Assembly (NCBI GenBank): GCA_030672445.1
Contig: DAOVGK010000004.1
Span: forward strand, 1-11,713
DNA: 11,713 nt
Direction: 5' to 3'
DNA from: Candidatus Aerophobota bacterium
GTDB taxonomy: Bacteria; Aerophobota; Aerophobia; Aerophobales; AE-B3A
The position numbers were made by a program, and so were the translations under genes. Below are positions 2,631-11,713 of the stretch, one piece after another. The notes below the pieces were generated by a model. The model saw nothing but the letters and a program-made list of their open reading frames with translations. It was not told the origin of the DNA and made no database searches. Every line of letters begins with the position of its first letter. The stretch's first letter is position 1.

Positions 2631-2695
2631 TAAATGTATCCTTAAACGATTGATCTGATCTTCTCTACTTAGAGGATAAAGCTAGTCTAAAAGAG

Positions 2696-2726
2696 CCTCT
2701 TTTCTTCTCTGGGAGAGCAAAAGAGG
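2696..2726. repeat. 31-nt inverted repeat (stem-loop)
   Basis: CCTCTTTT (2696-2703) pairs with AAAAGAGG (2719-2726), and CTCT with AGAG inside, around a GGG loop with small bulges. On the minus strand it is followed by CTCTTTT, so it could act as a weak terminator for the minus-strand transposase-like fragment. A smaller perfect hairpin, CTCTA-CT-TAGAG, lies at 2663-2674. Confidence 0.5.
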
Positions 2727-2739
2727 TAATTTCTTTAGA

Positions 2740-2763
2740 AAGTGGCACGTGCGTGTGGCACTT
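2740..2763. repeat. 24-bp imperfect palindrome next to TTGACA
   Basis: The arms AAGTG and CACTT enclose the perfect palindrome GCACGTGC (2745-2752) and a second GTGGCAC block (2742-2748 and 2755-2761 are direct repeats). Its right end overlaps the TTGACA of repeat copy B, where an operator would sit. No regulator gene is next to it. Confidence 0.35.
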
Positions 2764-2811
2764 GACAAAAAATGTGCTAATATAAATAACTAATAGTGAA
2801 GTTAGATCCTT
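2762..2811 (+). repeat. Copy B of the TTGACA...TGAAGTTAGA element
   Basis: TTGACAAAAAA (2762-2772) is followed by an AT-rich stretch with TGCTAATATAAATAA, then TGAAGTTAGATCCTT from 2797. It matches copy A at 2508 in both end blocks. It coincides with the place where the minus-strand transposase-like protein stops looking like a conserved protein (near residue 137), so it may mark a rearrangement breakpoint. As a promoter it is not standard: the best AT-rich -10 candidates lie 10-15 nt from TTGACA. Confidence 0.45.
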
Positions 2812-3211
2812 GAAGTTTAGCTTATCAGCTTCTTTGTGTTTCCAGCGGTCAAGAGTACGTCGGGAGCCAGTAACATTGAAAGAGCGAGCGAGACGTCCCC
2901 TTATCTTCTCTGCAGGAATATTGTTTAAGATATTACTGGCTACACCTTCTTTAATTACCCGATTCGTTGCTCTTTGGTACTTTGTGATTCCTTTTACCGG
3001 TAAGGGAAAACTTTTCGCCTTGCAGTGAGGATTTAGACATTTAGCAGATACTACAAGTACTTTAAGCAGAACTGGTTTATCTAAATCGAATTCTTTTACT
3101 GTTTTCCAGTGTTCACTCTTTTTCTTAAAGGTTTGTTTTAATCCGCATACAGGGCAAATGCAGTACTTCGTGATGCGAGGTTTGATAATCTTAATCCGTA
3201 GCTTTTTGGCC

Positions 3212-3252
3212 ACCTGGTACCCTCCTTCTTTTTAGAAGGAAGTGTATCAGGT
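3212..3252 (-). promoter_or_regulatory. Hairpin covering the ribosome binding site and GTG start of the transposase-like gene
   Basis: On the minus strand this 41-nt segment folds on itself: ACCTG pairs with CAGGT at the ends and TCCTTCT with AGAAGGA at the centre around a four-base loop, with matching TAC/GTA in between and only a few mismatches or bulges. The AAGGAGG site (complement of 3221-3227) lies in one arm, and two bases of the GTG start pair in the outer stem. Such folding would hold down translation, as known for several transposase mRNAs. The fold is visible; its regulatory effect is inferred. Confidence 0.5.
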
Positions 3253-3365: not shown

Positions 3366-3659
3366 ATGAAATACCTTCCTCAGTCAGGCGAAAAAATAAA
3401 AGAGATTGCTCTTCAAATAGTAAGGGCAAGAAAAGCTAAAAAGGTGGTGATATTTTTTACCGGGGCTCACCTTATCAAAAATGGCTTAGGTCCTATACTG
3501 CTTGATTTAATAAAAATGGCATATGGTAACTTTGACAGCCTCTAATGGAGTAGGTGCAATTTTGATGAGCGAGGCTTGAAGTTAAGATTTGGAATAACTG
3601 TATTTCACCATGAATTGGACGAAGTTTTGGAGGAGGCCAAAGAATACGAGGAGGGCTAA
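3366..3659 (+). pseudogene. Broken gene upstream of the RuBisCO-like gene; deoxyhypusine-synthase-like signature
   Basis: From ATG 3366 the frame reads a plausible protein, including FFTGAHLIKNGLGPILLDLIKM, then meets TAA near 3542. In the neighbouring frame the sequence continues sensibly as VTLTASNGVGAI. Together they resemble the GAHxIKxGLxPxLxDLMxxGxVTHxAxNGAGAI pattern I recall from bacterial proteins annotated as deoxyhypusine-synthase-like; this recognition is from memory and tentative. The original frame then carries a second good stretch, GITVFHHELDEVLEEAKEYEEG, ending TAATAATG, where the last stop overlaps the start of the next gene and the codons for EEG form its GAGGAGGG ribosome binding site. 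So an upstream operon member appears shortened and frameshifted. A sequencing or assembly error plus deletion is the alternative. Confidence 0.5.
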
Positions 3660-3661
3660 TA

Positions 3662-5086
3662 ATGGTAAAGTTAACGGATGTTCTTTTTAACCTGGATAAA
3701 AGGGAGGAAATTATACGAAAAGAGGTGGAGGGACATCTATCTGATTTTGAGGTGGCAGACACTAAGGATCACATAGTTGCAACATATTTCATTCATACGA
3801 TAGAAAGTACAAACATAGAGAAATCTGCTCAGGAAATAGCTCGCCTTCAAACATCAGGTGAGAGGTATACTGGAAATGGAACAAGGTTACAAAAGAGTAC
3901 AGGCTACTTCCTCGATTCCATTCCCTTTAACAGCGAAAAGACTGTTGGGTTGGTAAGAATCGCCTTTCCTGTGGTGAATATATGGGACACAAGGCATAAC
4001 ACAATCTACTCTTCAGAAATTCTGCATATTATTGCCAGTGCTGTACAATTTGATTTTCCAAAGAATGTTGACATCAAATTGGTTGATGTATCTATGTCTG
4101 AAGAAATTATATCAGCATTTCCAGGCCCTGCTTTTGGCGCTAAAAGATTAAGGGAGACAACCGAGTATGGATCAGGAGTTGCCTTTGGGACAATTGGCAA
4201 GCCAAAGACAGGGCTTACGGCTGATGAATATGCTCTCATTATAGCTGAGGCTGCAAAGAATCCGTTGTTTTTATTTGTGAAGGACGATGAAAATTACGGT
4301 GTGTGGTATAAAGATTGTCTACTCAGTGAGAGAGTAAAAAGGGTAAGTGAAGCTATAAAAAAGGCAAATAAGATAAGAGGGAAGGGGGAGATAATATATG
4401 CCCCGCATATAGGGAATTCCGTACAGAACCTCAAGGAAAATATAGATATCGCCCTGGATAATGGTGCCACCGCCATAATGTTTAGTGAAATTCATGGAAG
4501 AGGAGGAGTAAGATTAGCAAGAGATTACATGATAAAAATAGGAAGACAGGTTCCCATCTATGGGCATAATGGAGGTATAACTCCACTAACAAGAGTTATA
4601 TACAGAGAAATCCTTGATATGTTTGCCAGATTGGATGGTATTGACATGAGGCAAACAGGTCCTGTTGGGATTCATAAACTTCCACTGTTAAGACCTTATG
4701 GACGGGAATGGGAGGCATCCGAGAGAATGCTCACAAAACCTTTGGGCAAACATAAGCCTGTTATGGTAGCAAGAGCAGGAGGTCTTGACCAGGGAAATAT
4801 TATATTAAATTTTTATGATATAAAGAAAAGAGGTTATGACCAGAATAATTTCCTTATGCTGGCCGGTTCAGCAATTAATGAGTGGAGAGATGAAACAGGA
4901 AAATACAATCCTAAAGGTGGTGCAATTGCAATGGAACAGGCAATCAAAATTTATGAGGATTATAGCTTTAATCCTGAGCCCTGCTCAACGCATGTTGAGC
5001 GATTATACAATCGTGCAAAAGAGTTGGGACACAAGGAGTTAGTATCTGCCTTAAAGCAACGCTACCCCGAAAAAACCTTTGGATAG
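3662..5086 (+). CDS. RuBisCO-like protein (RuBisCO large-chain superfamily, form IV-type)
   Basis: The 474-residue product carries the RuBisCO barrel signatures. These are FPGPAFGAKRLRE (153-165, the GPphG...R segment), the catalytic-lysine loop TIGKPKTGLT (177-186, K180), and FVKDDEN (205-211), in which K207 would be the carbamylated lysine and D209/E210 the metal ligands. Later come YGHNGG (300-305), QTGPVGIHK (331-339, in the place of flexible loop 6) and ARAGGLDQGN (370-379). The carboxylase residues of the phosphate sites and loop 6 are not conserved as in true RuBisCO, so carboxylation of ribulose bisphosphate is unlikely. Known relatives act as enolases, isomerases or decarboxylases on sugar-like phosphates (methionine salvage, apionate degradation). 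It is longer than most form IV proteins, mainly at the N-terminus. The start is fixed by GAGGAGGG (3648-3655), 6 nt upstream. It is coupled to the GatZ-like gene 9 nt downstream. The substrate is unknown. Confidence 0.88.
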   Translation: MVKLTDVLFNLDKREEIIRKEVEGHLSDFEVADTKDHIVATYFIHTIESTNIEKSAQEIARLQTSGERYTGNGTRLQKSTGYFLDSIPFNSEKTVGLVRIAFPVVNIWDTRHNTIYSSEILHIIASAVQFDFPKNVDIKLVDVSMSEEIISAFPGPAFGAKRLRETTEYGSGVAFGTIGKPKTGLTADEYALIIAEAAKNPLFLFVKDDENYGVWYKDCLLSERVKRVSEAIKKANKIRGKGEIIYAPHIGNSVQNLKENIDIALDNGATAIMFSEIHGRGGVRLARDYMIKIGRQVPIYGHNGGITPLTRVIYREILDMFARLDGIDMRQTGPVGIHKLPLLRPYGREWEASERMLTKPLGKHKPVMVARAGGLDQGNIILNFYDIKKRGYDQNNFLMLAGSAINEWRDETGKYNPKGGAIAMEQAIKIYEDYSFNPEPCSTHVERLYNRAKELGHKELVSALKQRYPEKTFG

Positions 5087-5095
5087 GGAGAAAAA

Positions 5096-6379
5096 ATGCC
5101 ATTGAGGGATGATGTATCATTAGCTGATTTAGTAAGAGCAACCTACAGGTTAGCTGAAAAAGGGGATAGGATAACTCACCTTGGAATTTGTCCAATGTCA
5201 GAGGAACTCATAAGGGCACCTATTGAATTAGCATTAGAATATGGCTTCCCTGCTCTCTTTGTAGCAAGTAGAAATCAAGTTAGCGAGGATGAGGGAGGGG
5301 GTTATCTAATGGGGTTGACTCCTGAAAGCTTTGTTCAGAAGATCATCGATATGGAAAACTCACTTGGGATAAATAGTGATTCATCGCCTGATTATATGCG
5401 CTTTATAAGTGTTGACCATTGTGGTCCCTGGTACAAGGAGAGAGAAAAAAAGCTAAGTGAAGAGGAGGCAATTAAATCAGTAAAACGCACTCTTATTGCT
5501 TGTTTAAAGGTGGGTTATTCCGGATTTCATATTGATTGTTCATTCAAACCACCACTATCAGTTAAGATGAACGAAGAAAAAATGATTGAGTTAACCGTTG
5601 ATTTAATTGAATTTACTGAAAGAAAAAGAGTATCTTTTGGAAAACGGCCTGTAAGTTATGAAATAGGCACAGAAGAGACAGCGGGAGAAAGTGTTTTAGC
5701 GGAGCATTTCAATTCATCAATCAAAAGTATACTTTCCGAAATAAAGAAAAGGGGACTGCCTGAACCGGCATTTGTTGTAGGAAGAACAGGAGCGGCGATT
5801 AAGATGCTGGAGAATGTAGGAGGATTTGACTATACTGCTGCAAGTTCTCTTCCCAAAATTGCCAGAAAGTTTCATATAGGATTTAAGGAACACAATGGGG
5901 ATTACTTAAGCGATCCTATTCTTTCATTGCATCCTTGGTATGGGATTACTGCTGTGAATGTTGGGCCTTCCTTGGCAGCCGAAGAGACAAGAGCTTTGCT
6001 AGGTTTAGCAGAAATTGAGAAAAGGAAAATAGGAACGGATAGCTCTAATCTCTATGAAGTTATGAGTGAGACAGTATTGGAAAAGGCACCATTTCACAAG
6101 TGGTTGAGGAAGGAGGATAAGTGGACCGTCAATGAGCTTCGAAGTATGCTTGCTGAACTGCGTGCCGTGACAGTTGTCTGTGGTCATTATGTTTACTACG
6201 ATGAAAAGATTAGAGAGTCAATTAATGGGCTATACAGCAACCTAAAGAGGCATGGGCTTTCTGAGAATCCAGAAGCCTACGTTATGGAGGCGGCGAAGAA
6301 GGCCATTATGAGATATGTAGATGCATTTAATCTTCGGGGAAGCACTTCAAAGATAATTAAAATGACAAAATCATTATAG
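5096..6379 (+). CDS. GatZ/KbaZ-family protein (tagatose-bisphosphate aldolase subunit or sugar epimerase family)
   Basis: The 427-residue protein matches the landmarks of the GatZ/KbaZ family: SRNQVSEDEGGGYLMGLTPESF (58-79; compare TSNQVNQ...GGYTGM.P.DF), SVDHCGPW (105-112; compare GGDHLGP), FHIDCSF (144-150; compare IHLDAS), YEIGTEE (188-194), FKEHNGDYLSD (263-273) and VNVGPSLAAEETRALLGLAE (287-306). Family members were first described as the non-catalytic subunit of tagatose-1,6-bisphosphate aldolase; others act as hexose or hexose-phosphate 4-epimerases. No GatY/KbaY-type aldolase partner is present in this window, which favours an isomerase or epimerase role, but that is inference. It starts 9 nt after the RuBisCO-like gene; its AGGGAG site overlaps that gene's stop, so translation is probably coupled and the two proteins likely serve one pathway. 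Confidence 0.87.
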   Translation: MPLRDDVSLADLVRATYRLAEKGDRITHLGICPMSEELIRAPIELALEYGFPALFVASRNQVSEDEGGGYLMGLTPESFVQKIIDMENSLGINSDSSPDYMRFISVDHCGPWYKEREKKLSEEEAIKSVKRTLIACLKVGYSGFHIDCSFKPPLSVKMNEEKMIELTVDLIEFTERKRVSFGKRPVSYEIGTEETAGESVLAEHFNSSIKSILSEIKKRGLPEPAFVVGRTGAAIKMLENVGGFDYTAASSLPKIARKFHIGFKEHNGDYLSDPILSLHPWYGITAVNVGPSLAAEETRALLGLAEIEKRKIGTDSSNLYEVMSETVLEKAPFHKWLRKEDKWTVNELRSMLAELRAVTVVCGHYVYYDEKIRESINGLYSNLKRHGLSENPEAYVMEAAKKAIMRYVDAFNLRGSTSKIIKMTKSL

Positions 6380-6492
6380 ATAGGGAGCTTTTCAGAAATT
6401 AGTAATATATTAAAGCATATCGAAGTAAAATTTTTCTAAATTTCTTCTTTATAAAGTCCTCATTTTATGTAGGGTTTATCGATTGGAGTAGC

Positions 6493-6512
6493 TCAAGACT
6501 TTGGCAAAAATT
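6493..6512 (+). repeat. Left terminal inverted repeat of the insertion sequence
   Basis: This 20-bp repeat is an exact inverted match to 7600-7619. The transposase stop codon TAA (minus strand, 6512-6514) touches its inner edge. Confidence 0.85.
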
Positions 6513-7448
6513 TAAGCAAAAATAGGCTCTTTGACGTATAAATACTGGTGAAATACGTTATAGTGATTCTTTAGCCACCTCAAGAAGTAAAGGAGATTAA
6601 TTTTCCTGAAAAGTTCTCTAAAGAAGATCCCCGACAGTATTCAGATTAGTTTTGAGTATCCTCTGGAAGGGTCCTTCCAGTTTACTCCACATCAAAAAGC
6701 TCTTGAAGCAATAAAAACTGAATACCAGTGTCTCTTAATCGCTTTTAGACTCCTCACTTGATACTGATCAAAGGCTAAATTATCCTTCGCATCTTTCCTT
6801 AATCTTCTGTTTTCCATCGCCGGCTAAAGTGATGAACAATCTCCTTGTCCTTGAGGGAAAGGTTCTCCGTTACTAAAGACAAAAGATTCTTTTCATATCC
6901 TTAGTGTAGGGATCTTCTCTTGTGAAGTAACGATCCTCTTCTTTACCTTTCAAGAGACGGGACTCTAAAATCTGCTCCCCAGATGTATCTTTTTTCCTCT
7001 TTCCCATCTTTGTAGACCTTTGTCATTACCTGAAAGTAGCTTGGTGGAGGGGAATTGACTAACTTTTCTACAGTAAATTCCCTTCCTCTTTTCTTTGTTC
7101 GATGTCTCTCCTCTTTTCTTGTTCGGCACCTCTTGTTCACCCGATAAATGACATCATTGCTCTTTAAAGTGGAGATCCAATGTTTTCCTTGGTCTCAGAT
7201 AAAGGATACAAAATTCTGACAAAGATACCAATTATCGAAGAGGAGTTCTTCAAACTGGATACCTTTTTAAGAGCGTCCAGCACCAGTTTTTTGCTAAGCT
7301 GGATTTTGGTAAAGAAATCTGGAGAGTCTTCTTCTCCTTCTTCAAATTCATCAGCTGGTATGTAAGGAGAAAGATTAACAGGAAAATCTTTTGTCTTGTC
7401 TACATAATAAGAGGTAACAACTACGTTGCAGTTGACAAGACCTTTCTC
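6512..7448 (-). pseudogene. DDE transposase pseudogene (IS4/IS701-like), several frameshifts and stops
   Basis: Reading down the minus strand gives pieces of one transposase in three frames. Bases 7448-7262 encode GLVNCNVVVTSYYVDK and DFPVNLSPYIPADEFEEGEED. Bases 7260-6943 encode LLFDNWYLCQNF with a catalytic Asp candidate (7236-7234), an in-frame TGA (7197-7195), QGKHWISTLKSNDVIYRVNKR and the stretch from FTVEKLVNSPPPSYFQV to GADFRVPSLER. After a stop, the same frame gives HHFSRRWKTED with the Glu candidate at 6807-6805. Bases 6769-6692 in another frame give DQYQVRSLKAIKRHWYSVF, a well-known C-terminal motif of these enzymes. The end of the gene is LKNHYNVFHQYLYVKEPIFA and a stop. The N-terminal region with the first catalytic Asp is missing. 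It cannot make an active enzyme. Confidence 0.85.
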
Positions 7449-7599
7449 ACTATTTCAGCCTCCCTTATAATACGAGAATTTAAATATTCAAGTATCATAA
7501 GGGATTAGAGCCATTTTATCAAAGATCCTTTATTAAAGCCTTATATAGCCACAACGTTCTAAGCCTTTACTAATAAGGCTTTGAGCTCGATTGAGGGCT

Positions 7600-7619
7600 A
7601 ATTTTTGCCAAAGTCTTGA
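7600..7619 (-). repeat. Right terminal inverted repeat of the insertion sequence
   Basis: This is an exact inverted match to 6493-6512. The base identity is unusual given how far the enclosed transposase has decayed. Confidence 0.85.
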
Positions 7620-7816
7620 ATAAGTTGAAACCTTTGTGGCTATGAGGCTGGAATGTTACATTTTTTTTCTCTTCTAAGGGGCAGATTCTCTTGAAGAACA
7701 GGCTATGAGATTTAATTTTCATTATCTTCCCTCTGTCCCAAAAAGTAATCTTTGCAAAAATGGGAATAGATGCAGATTGGAAAAGAGAATCAGAAAGATG
7801 TTCACAAGTGATTAGT
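7620..7816. other. Intergenic stretch with no supported gene
   Basis: Between the insertion-sequence end and the putative operator I see no gene. GGCTATGAG occurs twice (7638-7646 and 7701-7709), and ATAGCCACAA (7545-7554) is inverted at 7634-7643. A 51-codon minus-strand frame (7567-7722) has a passable ribosome binding site, but it crosses the transposon end and has no recognisable content. Confidence 0.4.
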
Positions 7817-7838
7817 GTTAACGTATTGGCGCGTAAAC
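7817..7838. promoter_or_regulatory. 22-bp inverted repeat, possible operator upstream of the UroD-family gene
   Basis: GTTAACG and CGTAAAC are inverted relatives (one mismatch in seven) separated by eight bases. The site lies about 83 nt before the start codon of the gene at 7921, a sensible place for a regulator. The half-sites loosely recall those of sugar-responsive regulators. No regulator gene is in the window and no clear promoter hexamers were found beside it. Confidence 0.3.
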
Positions 7839-7920
7839 TAGTTTGAAGCCGATTTTGGGCAGAAAAATGCCAGAGTACAAAAATTGTTTTTGAGAAATAA
7901 AAGAGGGAGGGAATGCATAA

Positions 7921-9084
7921 ATGGTCAAAGATTTAACCTCAGAAGAAAGGGTGAAATTGGCCCTTCAACACAAGGAGCCGGATCGGGTTCCTTTTGACGT
8001 AGGGAGTACTGCTGTTACCGGCATTTGTGCAGGTGCCTACAAAAATCTTTTGTTTTATCTTGGCATGGATGGAAGGAAGATACAGGTGTGGGATATTGTT
8101 CAACAGTTAGCTGAGGTGGATGAAGATGTATGCCATCGACTTAAAGTTGATGCCCGGGGTTTGATGCCCAGCATTATTGCAGGGAAGCAACCCGAATTTA
8201 CAGAGGATAAGAGTTATACATATTTCACCGATACTTGGGGAATTAAATGGAGAATGCCTAAGCAGAGAGGATATTATTATGACATGTGTGGACATCCCCT
8301 AAAAGGAGAGATTGATAAGGAAAGAATCAGCAACTATGCTTGGCCAAACCCTGCCGACTTTGCTTACACTTCTGGATTGAAAGAGAAAGCAGAGAAATTT
8401 AAAGAAAAAAATAAGGCGATTGTAGTAGGTTCTTTGGGAGGAGGATTTTTTGAGCTTGGTTTTTGGATGAGAGGGTTTGAGGACTTTTATATGGATCTTG
8501 CGGCTGATCCTTCAACGGCTTGTTATTTAATGGATAAATTATTGGATATAAGAATGACCTATTGGGAGTTGGTCTTAAAAGAACTGGGATATTATACTTT
8601 GATAGTTATGGAGGGACAGGATCTAGGGATGCAAGATAGCACCATAATTGCTCCTGAGATGTATAGAAAATATGTGAGACCGAGAGAAAAAAAGCTCTTT
8701 TCTTATATTAAAAGAGTCGCTCCGGGTCAGGTCTATATTTTCTTTCACACTTGTGGTTCAGTATATGATTTGATTCCGGATCTCATAGAAGCAGGAATAG
8801 ATATTCTTAATCCTGTCCAGGTGTCGGCGGCAAAAATGGATACAGCTAGGTTGAAAAAGGAATTTGGTAAAGAGCTGACTTTTTGGGGTGGTGGTATTGA
8901 TACCCAGTATGTTCTTCCGCATGGTACAGTCCAACAGGTAAAGGACGAGGTAAAAAGAAGAGTAGACGATCTTGCTCCAGGAGGAGGTTTTATTTTCGGT
9001 ACCGTGCATAATATCCAAAATGATGTTCCGCCTGAAAACATTATGACTATGTGGGAAACTCTGCAAGAATACGGTGTTTACTGA
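7921..9084 (+). CDS. Uroporphyrinogen decarboxylase / corrinoid methyltransferase family protein
   Basis: The 387-residue protein belongs to the HemE/MtaA/CmuA superfamily. The N-terminal ERVKLALQHKEPDRVPFDVGS (9-29), the MEGQDLGMQDS segment (230-240), FFHTCGSVYDLIPDLIEAGIDILNPVQ (274-300) and FWGGGIDTQYVLPHGT (321-336) are typical. The position and HxC motif (H276, C278) match the zinc site of methylcobamide:coenzyme M-type methyltransferases, but no cysteine follows C278, so the distal thiol ligand of those enzymes is missing; HN at 363-364 occupies the late conserved segment. It is unlikely to be the heme-pathway decarboxylase, and no corrinoid protein or other heme gene is nearby. A methyl-transfer or related lyase role on an unknown substrate is possible. 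GGAGG (7906-7910) precedes the ATG by 10 nt. It stands alone after the transposon relic. Confidence 0.88.
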   Translation: MVKDLTSEERVKLALQHKEPDRVPFDVGSTAVTGICAGAYKNLLFYLGMDGRKIQVWDIVQQLAEVDEDVCHRLKVDARGLMPSIIAGKQPEFTEDKSYTYFTDTWGIKWRMPKQRGYYYDMCGHPLKGEIDKERISNYAWPNPADFAYTSGLKEKAEKFKEKNKAIVVGSLGGGFFELGFWMRGFEDFYMDLAADPSTACYLMDKLLDIRMTYWELVLKELGYYTLIVMEGQDLGMQDSTIIAPEMYRKYVRPREKKLFSYIKRVAPGQVYIFFHTCGSVYDLIPDLIEAGIDILNPVQVSAAKMDTARLKKEFGKELTFWGGGIDTQYVLPHGTVQQVKDEVKRRVDDLAPGGGFIFGTVHNIQNDVPPENIMTMWETLQEYGVY

Positions 9085-10705: not shown

Positions 10706-11713
10706 TCAAATGACAACAGCCTCCATTCCTGTAAACCTGCAAAACTCAACTAACGAGTCCCTAATGTCGCCGTGAATCATAGAAGCATGGTGAATAAAGC
10801 CCTCTTCAACCAGGATTCGGTACAGGTTTGCTAGATCGCTAACCTTAACCCAGCTCCAGGAGCCCCTGAGTTTGTCTTTGCTGGGGATTATCTCACCTTT
10901 AGTGATCAACATCTTGAACTCACCGTCATACTCAACTATACGACTGAGGGTAACCTTACCTTCTTTAAGCTGAAACTCAGCCGTCCCTTCACATCTTTCC
11001 CGTCCCAGCATCTCGCCAAGGATACTATGACTTTTTAGGTAGATTTGAGAATCCCTTGCTTTCAACTCCATGGGAGCATTGCCGCAGTGCCAGGCCAGGA
11101 AAACGTTTTTCTCTCGCTGATGCTGGATGGTCCAGTCAATAAAGTGAGGAACTGTGGCTTTGAGTGTGGCTAGATATTGAACCAGCATGGTTAAAGCTCC
11201 ATGAATATCAACCTCACAGGCAGTCATAATCCCCTGCTGGGTCAGTCGCCCCAGAGTCAAGCAGGCCGATATTCCATAGATCTCCTGCATGGCGGTCCAG
11301 CACTGAACACCCATAGCTGATAGGTCTTTCTCTTGAGCGAATTCTTTCAAGACGATTTCCAGTCGGGCTGCTTTGCGGAGTGTTTCTTCCTTGACAAGCT
11401 TGCAATTGGCGCTCTCCTTGATTTCATCAATAATTCGAGTAACTCCCTTTTCATCCTCGACCTCGTCTGCTCGGTGGAAAATATCCACCAACGATATAGG
11501 AACGACCCTCTGACCAAATTGTTCAATCATAGGAAATTCGTTGATAGCACAGGTCTCAAATCTTTCTGGTCGGGGACCAACCAGACCGATCCTTGCTCCA
11601 ACGAAGCCCCTAACAGCAACACAGGTTCGGACAAAATCCCTGATGCCCTTACTGAAAACTTCTTCTTCAGGAAAACAGATTCCCAGGAAACTGAAGGGAA
11701 TTCTTCTCCTATA
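10706..11713 (-). CDS. L-fucose/L-arabinose isomerase-like protein, 5' end cut by the window
   Basis: The frame is open on the minus strand from the window edge (11713) to TGA at 10706-10708, giving 335 visible residues. The ATG at 11530 is internal, since the upstream 61 codons encode family sequence (ARIGLVGPRPERFETCAINE). The following FGQRVVPISLVDIF, GVQCWTAMQEIYGISACLTLGRL, TACEVDIHGALT, PHFIDW and LAWHCGNAP segments match the fucose isomerase-like family (COG2407 type). By comparison with FucI, the Glu of CEVD and the Asp of FIDW, 26 residues apart, would be two metal ligands, and a His in HHASMIHGD the third. The family interconverts aldoses and ketoses with a divalent metal, but many members have untested substrates. 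The gene converges on the polyol dehydrogenase gene, with 123 nt between and no strong terminator hairpin seen. Confidence 0.85.
   Translation of the reverse strand, partial: YRRRIPFSFLGICFPEEEVFSKGIRDFVRTCVAVRGFVGARIGLVGPRPERFETCAINEFPMIEQFGQRVVPISLVDIFHRADEVEDEKGVTRIIDEIKESANCKLVKEETLRKAARLEIVLKEFAQEKDLSAMGVQCWTAMQEIYGISACLTLGRLTQQGIMTACEVDIHGALTMLVQYLATLKATVPHFIDWTIQHQREKNVFLAWHCGNAPMELKARDSQIYLKSHSILGEMLGRERCEGTAEFQLKEGKVTLSRIVEYDGEFKMLITKGEIIPSKDKLRGSWSWVKVSDLANLYRILVEEGFIHHASMIHGDIRDSLVEFCRFTGMEAVVI

Follow-up and report, generated by a model that had tools for sequence, protein, structure and literature searches.

Why should the gene for a RuBisCO-like protein (RLP) lie 9 nt upstream of a gene for a GatZ/KbaZ-family protein? 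The question arises from an 11,713-nucleotide stretch of DNA of Candidatus Aerophobota bacterium (assembly GCA_030672445.1, contig DAOVGK010000004.1; the whole stretch is referred to here as the window). A preliminary description of the window had reported this spacing, with the ribosome binding site of the second open reading frame (ORF) over the stop codon of the first, and both points were confirmed from the sequence, together with profile matches to PF00016 and PF08013. The RLP gene (3662..5086, + strand) encodes a 474-aa protein of class IV type and the GatZ-like gene (5096..6379, + strand) a 427-aa protein, both ORFs being intact. A Shine-Dalgarno-like AGGGAG (5085..5090, + strand) overlaps the TAG stop codon of the RLP gene (5084-5086), leaving 5 nt to the ATG of GatZ. 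The translational coupling suggested at the time is plausible: GatZ directly follows the RLP in two further loci, with a gap of 1 nt in L003 (labelled Woesearchaeota) and 13 nt in L004 (Aerophobetes), and both have purine-rich junctions comparable to that of the window. Compared with L004, the two window genes look to be under purifying selection (dN 0.064 and dS 0.63 for the RLP; dN 0.108 and dS 0.52 for GatZ).

We propose that the two proteins each carry out a carbonyl-chemistry step in the breakdown of a sugar or sugar acid by an undescribed route, a reading to which we assign a probability of roughly 0.45. It draws on gene order and its recurrence, on the residues kept intact, on the clade placement and the predicted folds, and on neighbourhood content. 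As the partner varies, the main novelty is the RLP clade, which is large and apparently unstudied, more than the pair itself.

An RLP clade apart from MtnW and OiaX

The window RLP belongs to the RuBisCO superfamily by both profile (PF00016, 45.5 bits, cut-off 30.1) and fold, its AlphaFold model adopting the RuBisCO fold with a pLDDT of 91.3. Scores against the NCBIfam equivalog models fall below the cut-offs for form III (88.8 versus 497.45 bits), MtnW (28.6 versus 513.6) and OiaX (44.4 versus 700). The best sequence match in the PDB is 1tel from C. tepidum, which we take to be a Photo-type RLP, at merely 62 bits; RLPs of two other groups match the same entry at 194 and 201 bits. In an 81-row tree of the RuBisCO family, RLPs of the window's own clade and of a sister clade form a single group (SH-aLRT 100), with the own clade supported at 99. 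A 56-row tree, from which 25 of the 81 rows were dropped (long branches, the L033-L039 group and others), gives 100/100 and 99/97 for the same two nodes. The window RLP thus groups with none of the MtnW, OiaX, form I and nanoarchaeal carboxylase-like rows but in a separate clade with strong support, where the group labels are our own, the nanoarchaeal rows lack curated-model typing and the sampled references include no form II, DeepYkr or Photo sequences. Roles assigned to RLPs include methionine salvage and apionate degradation. The preliminary description could match a route of the pair to neither, and the absence of the RLP from any characterised clade among those sampled, along with the equivalog cut-offs, bears this out.

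Window residues K180, K207, D209, E210 and H302 correspond to RuBisCO K175, K201, D203, E204 and H294 (form I numbering). These five, together with G380 and G381, are retained in 9/9 own-clade and 18/18 sister-clade rows. In the same rows, positions 295, 327, 379, 403 and 404 are N, Q, A, S and A, respectively, position 334 is L, F or Y, and position 123 is never N. N123, R295, H327, K334 and S379 are all retained in the 2 form I and 17 nanoarchaeal rows. We assign the lost residues to the second phosphate site and to the lysine that handles CO2. As judged from the alignment, both are gone, whereas the metal and enolisation apparatus of the RLP is intact. Since the metal site is kept and five carboxylase residues are lost, the RLP should enolise its substrate without fixing CO2. 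On the loss of N123, R295, H327, K334 and S379 carbon fixation was rejected, although several relatives of the window RLP carry the source name 'ribulose-bisphosphate carboxylase large chain'. Across 69 aligned rows R330 and R371 are invariant and R344 almost so; these arginines may bind the charged end of the substrate.

A methionine-salvage role, as an MtnW enolase or a DeepYkr 1,3-isomerase, would keep the window RLP within described chemistry of its own superfamily. Likeness to both lies in the non-carboxylating enolisation proposed here, of a ketose-1-phosphate-like substrate. K334 and R295 are also replaced in the one MtnW row, and a cupin gene occurs within 6 kb in 9/27 sister loci, DeepYkr RLPs being described as working with a cupin in a similar gene organisation. 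However, the sister-clade cupin is mannose-6-phosphate-isomerase-like, and no methionine-salvage genes were found among the own- and sister-clade neighbours run against Pfam. The window RLP has A at 379 and S/A at 403/404, compared with S and G/G in the MtnW row. It also differs in its neighbours and is separate in the tree, where joining own and sister clades with the MtnW-like rows is rejected (p-AU 4e-7, 56-row tree, which holds no DeepYkr reference). MtnW itself is ruled out by the equivalog cut-off, the residues and the approximately unbiased (AU) test, and we regard methionine salvage as a whole as very improbable.

OiaX, the 3-oxo-isoapionate-4-phosphate decarboxylase, offers a second precedent, in which the RLP would decarboxylate (or hydrolyse) a phosphorylated beta-keto sugar acid. 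OiaX and the kinase-linked RLPs share with the window protein the RuBisCO-like fold, the Mg site residues and a sugar-acid setting, and the 56-row tree puts the own and sister clades nearest to them, without support (59/26). Uronate-isomerase-like and dehydrogenase neighbours of the RLPs would be compatible with a sugar acid. The window RLP is, however, only ~25% identical to OiaX-annotated genes, and K334 and R295, present in 8/8 OiaX-type rows, are lost. Retention of K334 throughout the OiaX/kinase-linked rows and its loss here argues against decarboxylation. A four-carbon acid sugar kinase, which we take to be of the DUF1537 type, adjoins the RLP in 8/9 OiaX-type plasmid regions (the exception is a short Salipiger stretch, and the Natrinema RLP is partly annotated), compared with none among the 39 distinct representative neighbours run against Pfam here (most of the 626 called ORFs were not run). 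The equivalog cut-off and the residues rule out OiaX as such, and an OiaX-like reaction appears decidedly improbable.

RuBisCO-family genes of other kinds were seen in the same searches. Nine Asgard loci among L040-L049 (L047 is a Woesearchaeota record) have a RuBisCO-family gene beside an IF-2B-family gene, presumably ribose-1,5-bisphosphate-isomerase-like, and a CitG-family gene is near in five; the six rows aligned retain the carboxylase residues checked. Further RuBisCO-family genes occur in Aerophobota genomes G040-G053 (L056-L062, L064), three of them in G041, and several are nearest to MtnW-type models at scores below the cut-offs.

A GatZ/KbaZ-like protein with conserved zinc ligands

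The second protein is a member of the GatZ/KbaZ family by Pfam profile (PF08013, 72.1 bits, cut-off 26.7) and by fold, its predicted model resembling GatZ/KbaZ, UxaE (tagaturonate/fructuronate 4-epimerase) and tagatose 4-epimerases. The zinc ligands H88, E171 and H257 and the base D87 of E. coli GatZ are invariant in 25/25 GatZ rows (H108, E193, H266 and D107 in the window protein). Similarity to the E. coli enzymes otherwise amounts to 21-23% identity, the equivalog TIGR02810 scores 57.8 bits against a cut-off of 568.8, and E44 and K279 are replaced by V56 and N288. UxaE and the tagatose 4-epimerases are more distant still (12-13% identity, ~490 versus 427 aa).

The preliminary description considered GatZ relatives as aldolase subunits or 4-epimerases, and the latter agrees with a report of C4 epimerase function for both E. 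coli proteins, GatZ and KbaZ, on D-fructose-6-phosphate (F6P) and D-tagatose-6-phosphate (T6P) (PMC11907403). It could be instead that the RLP yields a ketose phosphate which the GatZ-like protein cleaves, working by itself or with an unlinked catalytic partner as a class II aldolase. The window protein is unlike the E. coli ones in having an RLP as its partner, and no gatY/kbaY-type aldolase gene was identified in the window or next to the GatZ gene in L003 and L004. We consider cleavage rather unlikely. As stated at the outset of this work, no GatY-type aldolase, sugar kinase or transporter is in view: none was identified in the window using the ORF list and profile scans of eight and six ORFs. 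LguG, a 5-keto-L-gluconate 4-epimerase (PMC12632266), was dropped as a further lead on the GatZ-like protein, as it is an IolO relative.

Among relatives with readable annotated neighbours, the nearest are proteins encoded on Enterococcus, Pantoea and Klebsiella plasmids (L140, L141, L142) at 34-35% identity; nearer relatives reach 85%. These plasmid genes lie beside genes for a fructose-type phosphotransferase system (PTS) and a transaldolase or Fsa, and no RLP is annotated in the stretches read. GatZ-like proteins are also encoded on 224 IMG/VR contig stretches, the best 80 of which (L144-L223) are at 25-32% identity and carry YE[IV]GTEE or [FL]KEHN[AG]D motifs.

Recurrence of the pair and content of RLP neighbourhoods

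A protein search with the RLP scored 7997 candidates and gave 1104 matches at E <= 0.001. Among the best 120, the first 24 are 67-99% identical, followed by matches at <=50%. The corresponding search with the GatZ-like protein gave, among the matches listed, 63 at 57-100% identity and then <=42%. Six contig sizes (3012, 3287, 5887, 10368, 25228 and 26004) are common to the 24 RLP and 63 GatZ rows of the own clades. One is the contig of L004; for the remaining five, the presence of both genes is inferred from the shared size and was not read, and the contigs of 3012 and 3287 bases have scarcely room for anything else. A scan of species genomes revealed 49 RLP loci, at 67-87% (L001-L004), 37-46% (L005-L032) and 24-38% (L033-L049) identity. 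The pair is adjacent in two of these genomes, as the preliminary description would lead one to expect, and not in L001 and L002, which belong to one phylum.

Beyond adjacency, an own-clade GatZ occurs in 4/4 genomes with an own-clade RLP and is intact in 3. In G001 it lies on a separate contig, directly 5' of uvrA; in G002 a two-frame remnant (L066) with its first 199 residues gone lies between uvrA and a dnaJ-like gene, as judged by eye. By comparison, 21 other genomes from the phyla of G001/G002 and G004 contain no close RLP and no close GatZ, the GatZ relative of G055 being 38% identical. A Fisher test of co-occurrence gave p 9.4e-5, computed with 20 controls (the correct number is 21) and indicative only, given that the genomes are related and one positive is a remnant. 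A close RLP is found in G003 alone among the 237 genomes of the phylum of L003, so the gene pair there was likely acquired by transfer or misbinned. No close GatZ was detected in the 392 genomes of the phylum of G010 (a Thermoguttaceae record), three relatives being at 27-36%, and no RLP relatives were found on viral contigs. The open-access PMC literature contained no paper that we could find linking an RLP with GatZ.

Two old sugar genes could have been held together by descent or transfer without a common function. The adjacent cases read number only three, two coming from close relatives, and the genes are apart in G001 with GatZ decayed in G002. Set against this are the spacing of 1-13 nt, kept despite divergence to 67% (RLP) and 52% (GatZ) identity, and the co-occurrence of 4/4 (one remnant) versus 0/21. 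We find adjacency without a common function unlikely.

The wider RLP neighbourhoods look sugar-catabolic from the families encoded. Within 6 kb of 27 sister-clade RLPs (L032 is excluded, no RLP ORF having been called for its match of 148 residues) we counted Gfo/Idh dehydrogenase (12), alpha/beta hydrolase (12), uronate-isomerase-like (11), mannitol-dehydrogenase-family (MtlD-like; 9), cupin (9), Rpe-like (8), PfkB (7), xylose-isomerase-like (5), URO-D (5), DeoR (4), TPP-enzyme (2) and class II aldolase (2) genes, with GatZ-like genes at 0; the family models were built on the very loci being counted, the counts are not set against a background rate and some contigs are short. Seven more distant RLPs have MtlD-like genes in 5 cases and uronate-isomerase-like, PfkB, URO-D, ManA and class II aldolase genes in 3 each. 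The uronate-isomerase-like amidohydrolase family (L005:6660-7988, L034:8300-9649, L037, L038 and others) has no significant Pfam match; one member matches 4i6v at 2e-21 and the uronate isomerase BH0493 at 2e-6. L003 is the only own-clade locus with an MtlD-like gene, third in order, and this gene was set aside; against it, six mannitol-dehydrogenase-family loci of related genomes match at 25-29%, and the best of G004 (L231) gives no match at E 1e-5. The C-terminal part of a GH38 alpha-mannosidase (2-580) precedes the RLP of L004 by 164 nt, and another GH38 gene occurs in L034. Signs of mannose/mannitol-like and of uronate-like substrates are thus both present, and neither is decisive. Of the preliminary proposal of a route for an unusual sugar, the sugar-catabolic setting stands for the RLPs at large; the pairing with GatZ is limited to one small subclade.

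Within the window, a candidate partner only is an L-fucose/arabinose-isomerase-like (FucI-like) gene (10706..11713, - strand) that runs off the window; its best NCBIfam model is SftI, at 146 bits against a cut-off of 700. It was set aside as an obligatory partner, being ~30% identical to the genes that directly precede the RLP in L001 and L002 and belonging to a family present in 18/25 related genomes. A URO-D/MtaA-like gene (7921-9084) was likewise set aside as a pathway member for want of a background rate: such genes recur near RLPs in 2/5 own, 5/27 sister and 3/7 distant loci, with several copies in L034. The remaining window genes encode DNA polymerase III delta'-like, short-chain dehydrogenase, zinc alcohol dehydrogenase and, as judged by eye, thymidylate-kinase-like proteins. 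Between the short-chain dehydrogenase and the RLP lies a 182-aa ORF (2665-3213, - strand) with paired cysteines (CPVC, CLNPHC) and no Pfam match; it is transposase-like by eye and may be an insertion remnant. An open frame tail, GLKLRFGITVFHHELDEVLEEAKEYEEG (~3577-3661, + strand), stops immediately 5' of the RLP start, and as RLP P0009 carries a similar tail fused at its front, an upstream gene has seemingly been lost in the window. The 1.5 kb between GatZ and the URO-D-like gene (6380-7920) has no ORF >= 80 aa. Scanning for promoters and terminators at the pair gave sites not in excess of shuffled sequence, and no tRNA was found in the window.

A putative route and its implications

In the route that we propose, carbamylated K207 and Mg2+ held by D209 and E210 would allow the RLP to deprotonate a ketose, or its phosphate, at C3. 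Re-protonation of the enediolate would make the enzyme either a C3 epimerase or an isomerase. On the same carbon skeleton, one step before or after, the GatZ-like protein would act as a Zn2+-dependent retro-aldol/aldol C4 epimerase. An aldose-ketose isomerase could supply another step, FucI-like in the window's subclade and uronate-isomerase-like in the sister clade, with a polyol/aldonate-type dehydrogenase, a PfkB kinase and an aldolase, mostly encoded elsewhere, for the remainder. An enolising RLP that does not handle CO2, a zinc epimerase and a setting of sugar genes together suggest that an unusual ketose or keto-acid (phosphate) is transformed at C3 and C4 in turn. Only gene order and co-occurrence point to a substrate common to both enzymes.

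Several observations weigh against this reading, among them the limits already given for the neighbour counts. In L001 and L002 the L-fucose-isomerase-like gene takes the place immediately upstream of the RLP and the GatZ adjacency is absent, while in G002 the RLP is intact although GatZ is broken and on another contig. Only one of the 28 sister-clade genomes has a PF08013 match above the cut-off, a canonical GatZ. As the sister clade lacks the own-type GatZ and G002 has only a decayed copy, the RLP evidently functions without it. With E44 and K279 replaced, F6P/T6P may not be the substrate of the GatZ-like protein, and with R295, H327 and S379 lost, phosphate binding by the RLP is an assumption.

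RLPs as isomerases are established: the DeepYkr RLP converts 5-methylthioribulose-1-phosphate to 1-methylthioxylulose-5-phosphate, according to PMC5893883 and PMC4958253. It is quite possible, if short of an even chance, that the whole RLP branch, with records labelled Aerophobetes, Caldisericota, Armatimonadota, Planctomycetota, Verrucomicrobia, Hydrogenedentota, Chloroflexi and others, consists of sugar isomerases or epimerases that enolise ketose (acid) phosphates. The window's subclade would add a zinc C4 epimerase, C3 and C4 of one ketose being inverted in turn, which would give a route towards common intermediates that is undescribed in the literature searched. The role of GatZ may then be to fit a shared pathway to one particular epimer. 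If true, this would extend RuBisCO superfamily chemistry to wider sugar metabolism, given the hexose-, hexitol- and uronate-type genes around these RLPs. A clade with an intact metal site and without the carboxylase residues provides gene sets open to direct testing, and in metagenomes the RLP genes of such a clade should not be taken as carbon fixation.

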